Assembly: GCA_016284975.1 (NCBI GenBank)
Contig: JAEEPV010000313.1
Location: 1-11,848 of the forward strand
Length of the DNA: 11,848 bases
From: Solobacterium sp.
Lineage (GTDB): Bacteria > Bacillota_I > Bacilli_A > Erysipelotrichales > Erysipelotrichaceae
Direction: 5' to 3'
A program made the position numbers and the translations under genes. Each line of letters starts with the position of its first letter. Within the stretch, counting starts at the first letter, position 1. The notes beneath the pieces are model-generated. The model was not told the DNA's origin. It worked only from the letters and a program-made list of their open reading frames with translations, and ran no database searches. This document shows, piece after piece, positions 3,509-11,848 of this stretch.

Positions 3509-4606
3509 ATGAAAAACACGTTTGGAAATGAAATCACGATCACGGTATTCGGTGAATCCCACGGACCAGCCATCGGCTGTGTTATCGACGGGCTGCCTTC
3601 CGGATTCAAGGTTGATATGGATCGGATCGCATATGACATGGAACAGCGACGTGCGGTTGGATCAATTTCAACCGGCAGGAAGGAAGCGGATGAAACGGAA
3701 ATTCTCTCTGGAATCAAAGATGGCATGACCGAAGGAACACCGGTTGCGATCATGATTCGTAATACAAATGTGCGTCGGGAAGACTATGATGCGATGCGGT
3801 ATCTGGCCCGTCCGTCCCATGCGGACTATGCGGCAGAGATTCGTTATAAAGGTTTTCAGGACGCTTCCGGAGGCGGACATTTTTCCGGCCGGCTGACTGC
3901 GCCGATCACTGCGGCGGGGAGTATCCTGCGGCAGATGCTGGAGAAGAAAGGGATCCTGATCGGGTCACATATCAAAAATCTGCATGGAATTGAAGATGAT
4001 CCGCTGCTTGAACATGAAATCAAAACAACAATTCGAAATCTGAATGCGAAGCAGTTTGCAGTCATCAATGAAGAGATAGGCGAGCAGATGAAGAAGGCAA
4101 TTGAAAAGGCAAGGGAAGAACAGAATTCCCTCGGCGGAATCCTGGAGACCGCTGTGGTCGGAATCGAAGCAGGAATCGGAGAACCGATTTTTGACTCGGT
4201 TGAAAGCAGGCTGAGCAGTGCGCTGTTTTCCATCCCGGCGGTTAAGGGAGTGTCTTTCGGCGCAGGTTTTGGATTTGCGCAAATGACCGGCAGAGAGGCA
4301 AATGACCGCTTTACGGTATGGCACAAAGGCATTGCGACGATTACCAATCATAACGGCGGCATTAACGGAGGAATTACCAACGGGATGACGATTCGGTTTA
4401 ATACGGTCATCAAGCCAACCCCGTCAATCGGTATTGAACAGACGACGGTAGATTTCAAAAAGAGAGAAAATACAACAATCGCAATCAAAGGCAGGCATGA
4501 TCCGGCCATCATTCACCGTGCCCGTGTGGTGGTAGATTCCATGACAGCAATCGTACTTGCAGATATGCTTGCGACGGCGCACGGAAATCAGTGGCTTGGA
4601 GAATAA
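3509..4606 (+). CDS. aroC: Chorismate synthase
   Basis: This 365-residue enzyme catalyses the last shikimate step, EPSP to chorismate, with reduced FMN as cofactor. Diagnostic segments are all present: FGESHGPAIG (14-23), QRRAVGSISTGRKEADE (46-62), RPSHADYA (101-108), the glycine-rich FQDASGGGHFSGR (116-128), NGGINGGITNG in the C-terminal third, and GRHDP followed by the R.R.VVVDSM helix near the end. The reduced-flavin active site therefore looks complete. No flavin reductase domain is attached, so the enzyme depends on cellular reductant. The ATG directly follows the aroB stop and AAGGA lies inside the aroB end, consistent with coupled translation. aroE/aroK follows after 4 bp. Confidence 0.97.
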   Translation: MKNTFGNEITITVFGESHGPAIGCVIDGLPSGFKVDMDRIAYDMEQRRAVGSISTGRKEADETEILSGIKDGMTEGTPVAIMIRNTNVRREDYDAMRYLARPSHADYAAEIRYKGFQDASGGGHFSGRLTAPITAAGSILRQMLEKKGILIGSHIKNLHGIEDDPLLEHEIKTTIRNLNAKQFAVINEEIGEQMKKAIEKAREEQNSLGGILETAVVGIEAGIGEPIFDSVESRLSSALFSIPAVKGVSFGAGFGFAQMTGREANDRFTVWHKGIATITNHNGGINGGITNGMTIRFNTVIKPTPSIGIEQTTVDFKKRENTTIAIKGRHDPAIIHRARVVVDSMTAIVLADMLATAHGNQWLGE

Positions 4607-4610
4607 TTCT

Positions 4611-5855
4611 ATGAAAATTGGTCTGATCGGTTATCCGCTTGGCCACAGCTGGTCAAAAGAAATTCATGCCTTTCTTCTTGGAGAGGATTGTTATACGCTC
4701 CATGAATGCAGACCGGAAGATCTGCAGACGTTTTTCCGTACGACAGATCTCGATGGTTTTAATGTGACGATTCCGTACAAGCAGGCGGTAATGCCGTTGC
4801 TTGATGAAATCGATCCGGCTGCGGAACGCATTGGCGCTGTTAATACGGTTGTCCGTAAGGATGGAAAATTTATTGGGTATAACACCGATTATGAAGGATT
4901 TATCCGCATGCTGGAGGCAAACGGAATTCAGATCAAAGATCGTAAAGCAGCGATTCTTGGAAGCGGCGGTGTTTCGAAGGCAATTCGGGCAGCAGTTGTA
5001 GCGCTGGGCGGAACGTACGATATTGTCAGCCGTAATGCATCTGACGAAACGATCACCTACGAACAGATGTATGCGAATGAATCAGACTACTCGGTCGTGA
5101 TTAATGCGACTCCGGTGGGAATGAGTCCGAAGGAAGAGGAAAGTCCTGCGGATCTTTCGCGCTTTTCAAAACTGGAAGCTGCCGTAGATGTCATAGCCAA
5201 TCCGCTTCGCACAACGTTCTGCTTTCAGGCACATGAACTTGGTATTCCGTACTGTGGTGGATTTGAGATGCTGGTCCGGCAGGCAATGGCTGCAGACCGG
5301 TGGTTTACAGGACAGCCGATGGATGAGGCACTTGCAATACCGTGCATGAATCATCTGCTGAAACAGCGGCGTTCCATTGTGCTGATTGGTATGCCAACAA
5401 GCGGGAAAAGTACAATCGCTCAACAGATCCATGAACTGACGGGAAGAGATCTTGTTGAAATGGATGAGATTCTGACGGAGCGGCTTGGCATGCCGATTTC
5501 ACAGTGCTTTGCAGAAAAAGGGGAGGCCTGTTTCCGGGCTGCGGAATCCGAACTGGCGAAAGAACTGACGTCCGGGAATGCGGTTATCTCCTGTGGCGGA
5601 GGCGTTGTCAAAAATCCGGACAATATGAGATATCTTTCCCGGAATGGACTGGTGTTCTGGATCGACCGCGACCCGTCACTTTTATTCGGAAGTGCTTCCC
5701 GTCCGCTTTCTCAGTCAAAGAAAGATATTCAGCGGCTGTACGAAGAAAGAAAGGATCTGTATCGCCGCTACAGTGATATACGGATTGAAAACAACGGTAC
5801 TTCGGAAGAAGCAGTTCGTAAGATCCTTCGGTTTACGGGAGAATCTGAATCGTGA
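4611..5855 (+). CDS. aroE-aroK: Bifunctional shikimate dehydrogenase / shikimate kinase (AroE-AroK fusion)
   Basis: One uninterrupted 414-residue frame contains two consecutive shikimate enzymes. Residues 1-250 are AroE, which reduces 3-dehydroshikimate: the substrate serines in GHSWS (11-15), the catalytic lysine K57 in NVTIPYK, N78 in GAVNT, D93 in GYNTD, the nucleotide loop LGSGGVSKA (116-124) and Q224 near the end. Residues 254-410 are AroK: a P-loop GMPTSGKST (260-268), shikimate-binding D285, GEACFR with R309, CGGG (328-331), and the lid arginine in RPL (364-366). There is almost no linker. Oddities are K16 where the family usually has proline (SPxxHN), SRN where NADP enzymes often have NRT, and T263 where shikimate kinases usually have glycine. 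GGAGAA (4598-4603) lies 7 nt before this ATG; an earlier in-frame ATG at 4557 is inside aroC and unlikely. The stop overlaps the aroA start (GTGA). Confidence 0.95.
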   Translation: MKIGLIGYPLGHSWSKEIHAFLLGEDCYTLHECRPEDLQTFFRTTDLDGFNVTIPYKQAVMPLLDEIDPAAERIGAVNTVVRKDGKFIGYNTDYEGFIRMLEANGIQIKDRKAAILGSGGVSKAIRAAVVALGGTYDIVSRNASDETITYEQMYANESDYSVVINATPVGMSPKEEESPADLSRFSKLEAAVDVIANPLRTTFCFQAHELGIPYCGGFEMLVRQAMAADRWFTGQPMDEALAIPCMNHLLKQRRSIVLIGMPTSGKSTIAQQIHELTGRDLVEMDEILTERLGMPISQCFAEKGEACFRAAESELAKELTSGNAVISCGGGVVKNPDNMRYLSRNGLVFWIDRDPSLLFGSASRPLSQSKKDIQRLYEERKDLYRRYSDIRIENNGTSEEAVRKILRFTGESES

Positions 5856-9378: not shown

Positions 9379-10353
9379 ATGTCCAAAAGGTTCGATGTAA
9401 CTGCACTTGGCGAACTCCTGATTGATTTTACTCAGAATGGGATGTCAGAACAGGGAAACCCTGTTTTTGAAGCAAATCCGGGCGGTGCTCCTTGCAATGT
9501 GCTGTCCATGCTGTCCCGTCTTGGCAGAAAGACTGCTTTCATCGGTAAAGTTGGTAATGACGGATTCGGCAAACAGCTGACAGAAGCAATCGAGGAAGTA
9601 GGAATCAATGCTGAAGGCCTGCTGTACGATGATGAAGTTCATACGACGCTCGCGCTTGTTCATACATTGGCGGACGGTGATCGGGATTTTTCCTTCTATC
9701 GTAATCCGGGAGCGGATATGAATTTGAATGAGAATGAGCTTCCTGCAGATCTGATCAAAGATGCGAAGGTCTTCCATTTCGGAACGCTTTCTCTGACCGA
9801 TGAACCGGTCAAGAGTGCAACCCATAAAGCGGTTGCGGTTGCGGAAGCGGAAGGACTGCTGCGTTCGTTTGATCCGAATCTGCGCCCGCCGCTCTGGAAG
9901 AGTCTGGATGATGCGAAGCGGGAAGTTGCCTGGGGACTGCAGCACTGTGATGTGCTGAAGATTTCAGACAATGAGATCACCTGGTTCACCGGTCTGGATG
10001 ACTATGATGAAGGCATTGCATATCTTCGGAAAAACTATCCGGATATCAAGCTGATCTGTCTGTCTCTGGGGCCGGATGGAAGCCGTGCCTATTACAAAGA
10101 CATCCGAGTGGAGGTAAAGCCGTTCCTTCAGAAAGAAACGATTGAAACGACCGGTGCCGGCGATACCTTCGGTGCCTGCGTGATCGATGGGGTTCTGGAA
10201 GAAGGGATCGACAGCCTCGATGCTGAAAAACTGACACGGATTCTGACATTTGCCAATGCGGCAGCTTCCATCGTTACAACTAAAAAAGGAGCTCTGCGCG
10301 TAATGCCGGACAGAGCGGCCGTTGAAGCGTTCATCGCTTCCTTCAAAGGATAA
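9379..10353 (+). CDS. scrK: Fructokinase, PfkB/ribokinase family
   Basis: This 324-residue kinase belongs to the PfkB family. The N-terminal GELLIDF and NPGGAPCNV (33-41) form the sugar site, GKVGNDGFG (56-64) follows, DPNLRP (165-170) is characteristic of bacterial fructokinases, and TTGAGDTFGA (257-266) carries the anion hole and catalytic base D262. It would phosphorylate fructose with ATP to fructose 6-phosphate in the cytoplasm. The next gene encodes an amylosucrase, which releases fructose from sucrose, so the substrate assignment fits the context. AGGAG at 9363-9367 lies 11 nt before the ATG. Length is normal and the frame is intact. Its stop codon directly abuts the downstream TTG start. 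Other PfkB sugars (for example 2-keto-3-deoxygluconate) are possible but less likely. Confidence 0.9.
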   Translation: MSKRFDVTALGELLIDFTQNGMSEQGNPVFEANPGGAPCNVLSMLSRLGRKTAFIGKVGNDGFGKQLTEAIEEVGINAEGLLYDDEVHTTLALVHTLADGDRDFSFYRNPGADMNLNENELPADLIKDAKVFHFGTLSLTDEPVKSATHKAVAVAEAEGLLRSFDPNLRPPLWKSLDDAKREVAWGLQHCDVLKISDNEITWFTGLDDYDEGIAYLRKNYPDIKLICLSLGPDGSRAYYKDIRVEVKPFLQKETIETTGAGDTFGACVIDGVLEEGIDSLDAEKLTRILTFANAAASIVTTKKGALRVMPDRAAVEAFIASFKG

Positions 10354-11848
10354 TTGAAAAACCGTATGACATTAGAAAAGAAACGTGATCCGGTGTTTGT
10401 GAAGCGTCTGAATGAATGTCTTGATGAACTGAAATGGCTCTATATGGAACTTTATCAGGACGAACATGCATTCGATTATTTCACAGACATGTTGTATCAG
10501 TTCTATACGGATCGTTCAAAACAACTGAAAAAGTGGGATGAGAAGCGCATTGCTGCCAAAGACTGGTATAAAGGCAATCAGATGCTTGGCATGGTAATGT
10601 ATGCCAATGCGTTTGCAAAAAATATCAACGGTGTACGCAAACATCTGGATTATATCGAAGAATGCGGCGTCAATTATCTTCACCTCATGCCGTTGCTTGA
10701 ATCTCCGGAAGGAAGAAGTGACGGCGGTTATGCGGTCAGCGACTTCCGCAAGGTGGAGCCTGCACTTGGTACGATCAAAGATCTTGCGGCGTTATCAGCC
10801 GACTGTCATAAACGCGGCATCTCGGTCTGTCTGGATTTTGTGATGAATCATACCAGTTAGGATCATGAATGGGCGGTAAAGGCAAAGCAGGGAGATATCG
10901 AATGTCAGAACCGGTATTTCTTCTACGATGACTGGACCATTCCAAACGAATTTGAAAAGACGGTGCCGCAGGTATTCCCGACAACGGCTCCAGGAAACTT
11001 TACCTGGAATGAAGAGACCGGAAAGGTTGTTATGACAACCTTCTATCCCTACCAGTGGGATCTAAACTATGCCAATCCGACCGTCTTCAATGATATGACG
11101 GCGAACATGCTGTTTCTTTGCAACAATGGTGTGGATATCATACGGCTTGATGCAGTGCCGTATATCTGGAAAGAGCTTGGCACCAACTGCCGCAATCTGC
11201 CGCAGGTTCATAACCTTGTACGGATGATGCATATGGCGGCGGATGTTGTATGTCCGGGAACGCTTCTGCTTGGAGAAGTCGTCATGGAGCCAAGCAAAGT
11301 TGTACCGTACTTCGGAACCGTCGAAAAACCGGAGTGCCAGATGCTCTACAATGTCACAACAATGGCCAGTACCTGGCATACGCTTGCCAGCCGCAGTGTC
11401 AAACTGCTTTCTCATCAGCTTGAGACAGTGTTCGCACTGCCGAAGGATTATACCTTCCTGAACTATCTGCGCTGTCATGATGATATTGGATGGGGTCTTG
11501 ATTACGAATACCTGGAATCCGATGGTCTCAAACAGATCCCGCATAAAAAATATCTGAATGATTATCTGACCGGTAAGTGGGAGGGAAGTGATTCCCGCGG
11601 AGAACTTTATAACGATGATCCGAGGCTCGGTGATGCAAGGCTGTGCGGAACAACCGCATCCCTTTGCGGCATTGAGACTGCACTGTACGAAAAGGACAGT
11701 GCCAAACTGGAGTGGTCACTTCGTCTGGATATCATGCTGCATGCATTCCTGTTAACGCAAAGCGGTGTTCCGGTATTGTATTCCGGAGATGAGATCGGCC
11801 AGCTGAATGATTATTCCTATCATGATGATCCGGAAAAATGTGCCGACA
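10354..11848 (+). pseudogene. Amylosucrase (GH13), interrupted by an in-frame TAG and cut by the window edge
   Basis: The frame encodes a sucrose-using GH13 glucosyltransferase of the amylosucrase type. Before the stop are an N-terminal helical region and the barrel start NYLHLMPL (residues 107-114), SDGGYAVSDFR (122-132) and DFVMNHTS (161-168). Then TAG (10858-10860) stands where the family continues with a residue followed by EHEWA; here DHEWA follows in the same frame. The next 329 codons have no further stop or frameshift and keep all catalytic residues: the nucleophile in DIIRLDAV (Asp, near 11150), acid/base Glu in LLGEVV (near 11275), and HDDIGW (near 11480). Typical segments YQWDLNYANP and SGDEIGQLND are also present. 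The start is either TTG at 10354, adjoining the fructokinase stop, or ATG at 10366; AAAGGA (10345-10350) suits neither ideally. It may be a recent nonsense pseudogene, a read-through gene or a sequence error. Confidence 0.85.
10858..10860 (+). other. In-frame TAG within the amylosucrase reading frame
   Basis: The TAG lies right after NHTS, at codon 169 counted from 10354, in the first conserved GH13 region. The following codons GAT CAT GAA TGG continue the family motif without a gap, so this is a substitution and not an indel. A single base change from CAG, AAG, GAG, TAT or TAC would produce it. The next base is G, and no in-frame ATG with a ribosome binding site follows closely to restart translation. 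Confidence 0.9.

Follow-up and report, generated by a model that had tools for sequence, protein, structure and literature searches.

A lone in-frame TAG in an amylosucrase-like gene of a Solobacterium draft genome is probably an assembly error or a recent private mutation

The window analysed here, a stretch of 11,848 nucleotides, ends in an amylosucrase-like gene whose reading frame is broken by one TAG codon, which raises the question of whether this codon is an error of the assembly, a recent mutation or a stop that the cell reads through. The window is the entire contig C12 of a draft genome of 2,221,423 bases in 378 contigs, with a completeness of 69.85%. A preliminary description made from the letters of the window had offered a very recent lesion, a base-call error and read-through side by side; the first two are supported by the comparisons below, and read-through is not. 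From sequence comparisons we infer, with a probability of roughly 0.93, that an assembly error (base error or strain mosaic) or a recent private nonsense mutation put the stop into an otherwise ordinary amylosucrase-like gene.

The 5′ part of the gene occupies positions 10354..10857 of the forward strand (168 codons, first ATG at 10366), the in-frame TAG positions 10858..10860, and the 3′ part positions 10861..11847, where 329 codons are open up to the contig end. The translation of 10354-11847 runs through CLDFVMNHTS into the stop and continues with DHEWA, exactly as first described, and the two pieces match consecutive stretches of the Pfam alpha-amylase domain PF00128 (profile positions 18-93 and 96-281). 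The motifs RLDAV, LLGEV and CHDD, seen by eye in the 3′ piece, presumably hold the catalytic Asp, the catalytic Glu and the HDD motif, which had been said to be kept downstream of the stop. The further claim of no other lesion downstream holds for the 498 codons present and not for the entire enzyme, as the gene runs off the contig; the frames of 14 orthologues from the genus are open over 614-721 codons.

When the frame was translated through the stop with an X at that position, its best match among solved structures was the amylosucrase 7esh_A (E 2.3e-129, residues 16-497), followed by the sucrose hydrolase 3cze (E 1.1e-108), and the best trehalose synthase reached E 6.5e-54. The predicted product is an amylosucrase-like enzyme of family GH13. 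Directly upstream, at 9379..10353 on the forward strand, lies a PfkB-family sugar kinase that NCBIfam matches best to fructokinase, at a score below the cut-off of that family; a fructokinase-like neighbour suits an enzyme that frees fructose from sucrose. Aromatic amino acid synthesis genes are found further upstream of the kinase among the members tested, and in the window they include a single forward-strand ORF at 4557-5855 that joins shikimate dehydrogenase and shikimate kinase domains. Elsewhere in the window, a forward-strand ORF at 540-1034 encodes a 164-aa protein without a Pfam match, whose N-terminal half is rich in Lys, Ala and Val and resembles histone H1 by eye. A literature search on amylosucrase together with Solobacterium found nothing.

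The same codon was compared in 59 other genomes of the genus, drawn evenly from a larger group. An amylosucrase orthologue was found in 14 of them, and all 14 have Glu at the site (12 GAA, 2 GAG). Among the best 120 of 7996 scored homologues, whose close members come from metagenome-assembled genomes named Solobacterium sp., the residue is Glu in 119 and Asp in one, so that no stop occurs at this site in any of the 14 orthologues or of these 120 homologues. The TAG is private to this draft among the relatives examined. One genome (G028) carries two different amylosucrase copies, on contigs C114 (L033) and C280 (L035), and the extra copy on C114 has a Glu codon as well; because that contig matches G021 at 99.97% identity across its 3,020 bases, it does not count as independent, and this near-identity suggests that G028 is a mixed bin. 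A TAG tallied for another genome (G039) was rejected as a shared stop, since it is the codon with which the matched stretch begins, and at the amylosucrase site G039 encodes Glu.

None of the 120 listed homologues of fragment length exceeds 73% identity, and such fragments end at many scattered places. A single distant one, P0136 (one of the 120 listed, seen as protein and not as DNA), ends at the same residue as the interrupted frame. The homologues examined include no copy from the same species. When named genomes were scanned, the 80 loci that were kept contained no copy with more than 82% identity; records of the genome itself or of its closest neighbours may be absent from that set.

Selection was estimated separately for the two parts of the gene. 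Against G021, with dS near 0.5, dN/dS was 0.061 before the stop and 0.043 after it; the corresponding values were 0.124 and 0.063 against G007, and 0.098 and 0.046 against G022. For the G028 copy on C280, dS was saturated after the stop and gave no ratio there. Purifying selection is strong and similar on either side of the TAG. Because the constraint does not differ between the two parts, the lesion is either very recent or not real.

We give an assembly error, by base call, low coverage or strain mosaic, slightly better than even odds. In this most likely course of events, a base or strain-mosaic error would have introduced the TAG during assembly, a view that the fragmentation and incompleteness of the draft support. 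The contig end points in the same direction. The 50 bases at 11776..11825 of the forward strand recur without change at the beginning of contig C139 (L036, 1-60), which continues the gene, and the final 23 bases of the window then diverge from C139; the encoded end of the window is also unlike G021. Because the two contigs disagree after this overlap, the assembly branches within the amylosucrase gene itself, about 1 kb 3′ of the TAG, and the divergence reflects either variation between strains or an error at the contig end. The lack of a near relative among the 120 listed fragment-length homologues further favours an assembly error, although a private mutation would be expected to leave the same pattern.

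Other lone stops in the draft also support a technical cause. For this comparison, 41 stretches of G021 (694,303 bases, part of that genome) supplied the ORFs, which were matched against 82 contigs that make up part of the draft; pairs were kept as coding if they had at least 8 differences with at least half of these at third codon positions (73 of 85 pairs, and 87 of 90 in the reverse direction). The 73 coding pairs, spanning 22,860 codons, contained 6 stops in the draft, 2 of them inside clear genes, namely the amylosucrase TAG and one TAA, in argB. In the opposite direction (87 pairs, 26,102 codons), G021 showed 4 stops, each no more than 15 positions from one end of its match, and no internal nonsense codon inside a gene. 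These numbers are small (two or three stops), and G021, itself partly sampled, is the sole yardstick. Several candidates were discarded on inspection: two apparent stops, 15 positions into the match, are followed by an internal ATG ahead of the domain, one falls on the penultimate residue of its match, one on C139 falls in a false ORF extension upstream of a FeoA domain, the remaining stops seen before filtering were in pairs that failed the coding-frame filter, and what looked like a frameshift beside a glutamate 5-kinase-like gene lies in sequence before that gene starts.

The argB gene (acetylglutamate kinase; L081, G000:C10, 2642-3508, reverse strand) carries its lone in-frame TAA at 2827. 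Over 289 aa it shares 95% identity with the intact copy of G021, for which TIGR00761 gives 260.6 bits; the gene is also uninterrupted in 9 other relatives with a near full-length match. A further lone TAA, at 2180-2182, interrupts a DUF2130 gene (L130, G000:C57, 1532-3022, forward strand) just before the domain; of four matching relatives, three (about 57-59% identical) extend across the stop position, where each has a sense codon. This gene came to light among 22 TAA- or TGA-ended ORFs followed by at least 100 open codons, and because only 8 of the 22 were looked at, the lone stops counted in the draft are a lower bound. At least 100 open codons also follow 9 of the 35 TAG-ended ORFs described below; the eight other than the amylosucrase gene were rejected by eye as split genes, being a gene end plus the next gene or chance frames. 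At least two further genes of the draft, argB and the DUF2130 gene, thus contain lone stops, both of them TAA. Lone stops of two types in unrelated genes fit scattered base errors, a strain mosaic or private mutations and do not fit a recoding of TAG.

A genuine nonsense mutation in the sampled strain, making the gene an incipient pseudogene or a polymorphism, is the next most likely origin of the stop, to which we assign somewhat less than an even chance. A recent point mutation would account for a stop that is private and that is accompanied by no further stop or frame break in the 498 codons, and the similar constraint on either side implies that little time has elapsed. The lone stop in argB of the same draft, however, is easier to explain by a common technical cause. 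The codon itself tells against error and mutation alike, because two base changes separate TAG from GAA, the codon in the nearest relative; one change separates it from the GAG of 2 of the 14 orthologues.

Read-through of the TAG by an amber-suppressing tRNA or a programmed mechanism, for which the intact and conserved downstream frame and the end point of P0136 might speak, is very improbable. Fragment ends are scattered, which weakens the case of P0136, and neither the orthologues nor the listed homologues share the stop. The preliminary description had correctly tallied the stops of the 12 complete genes of the window as 7 TAA, 5 TGA and no TAG; its suggestion that TAG may be rare in this genome is not borne out, as TAG is an ordinary stop that ends about 10% of long ORFs. 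TAG terminated 35 of 346 non-overlapping ORFs of at least 120 aa in the 82 contigs (452,048 bases), a count that takes in some chance ORFs and the amylosucrase site. In the same contigs it also closed 21 of the 221 open stretches that span 250 codons or more. Because the chance of finding no TAG among 12 genes at about 10% usage is about 0.28, the tally in the window is no proof of unusual TAG usage.

The count of TAG stops and the search for an amber suppressor or pyrrolysine system that had been proposed as checks likewise gave read-through no support. The draft encodes release factor RF1 (prfA, 487.7 bits against a cut-off of 423.25), and none of 60 genomes of the genus exceeded the TIGR02367 cut-off for PylS; weak matches below this cut-off occurred in 54 of the 60 and in most controls, and 1 of 14 controls exceeded it. 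The draft yielded 33 tRNA matches, and ARAGORN found no CTA anticodon in 30 of these loci, in the contigs of the other three or in the 82 contigs, which in a draft about 70% complete is a weak argument. The RNA 3′ of the stop folded no better than shuffled sequences (z 0.17). Still less credible is the idea that an amber-inserting tRNA missing from the incomplete draft, or simple leakiness, might yield some full-length amylosucrase and make the stop a dial for enzyme level.

If the stop is real, translation would yield no more than 168 residues and stop short of most of the catalytic barrel, with probable loss of the enzyme. If the draft is annotated as it stands, the genome could be scored as lacking amylosucrase and perhaps arginine synthesis. 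When a conserved gene in a fragmented draft shows a single in-frame stop, caution is called for, and relatives and other lone stops of the same draft should be compared before recoding is considered. Truncated predicted proteins have been taken as a sign of assembly indels (PMC6785717), in work that concerns long-read indels and is only loosely relevant here.

As an enzyme, the gene product resembles the amylosucrases of GH13 with solved structures (7esh, 3ucq, 1g5a), a likeness that extends over residues 16-497 of the read-through frame, and the sucrose hydrolases represented by 3cze are its next relatives; unlike the known amylosucrases, the copy in the window has one TAG in its frame and is missing the 3′ portion that lies beyond the contig. 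As a lesion, it corresponds to the lone nonsense codons that occur as a general kind in draft or metagenome assemblies through base error or private mutation. The features in common are a single lesion, no decay around it, no sharing with relatives and more such lesions in the same draft, and we saw no difference from this general kind. The interrupted gene is most likely a case of this kind and not of a new form of decoding.
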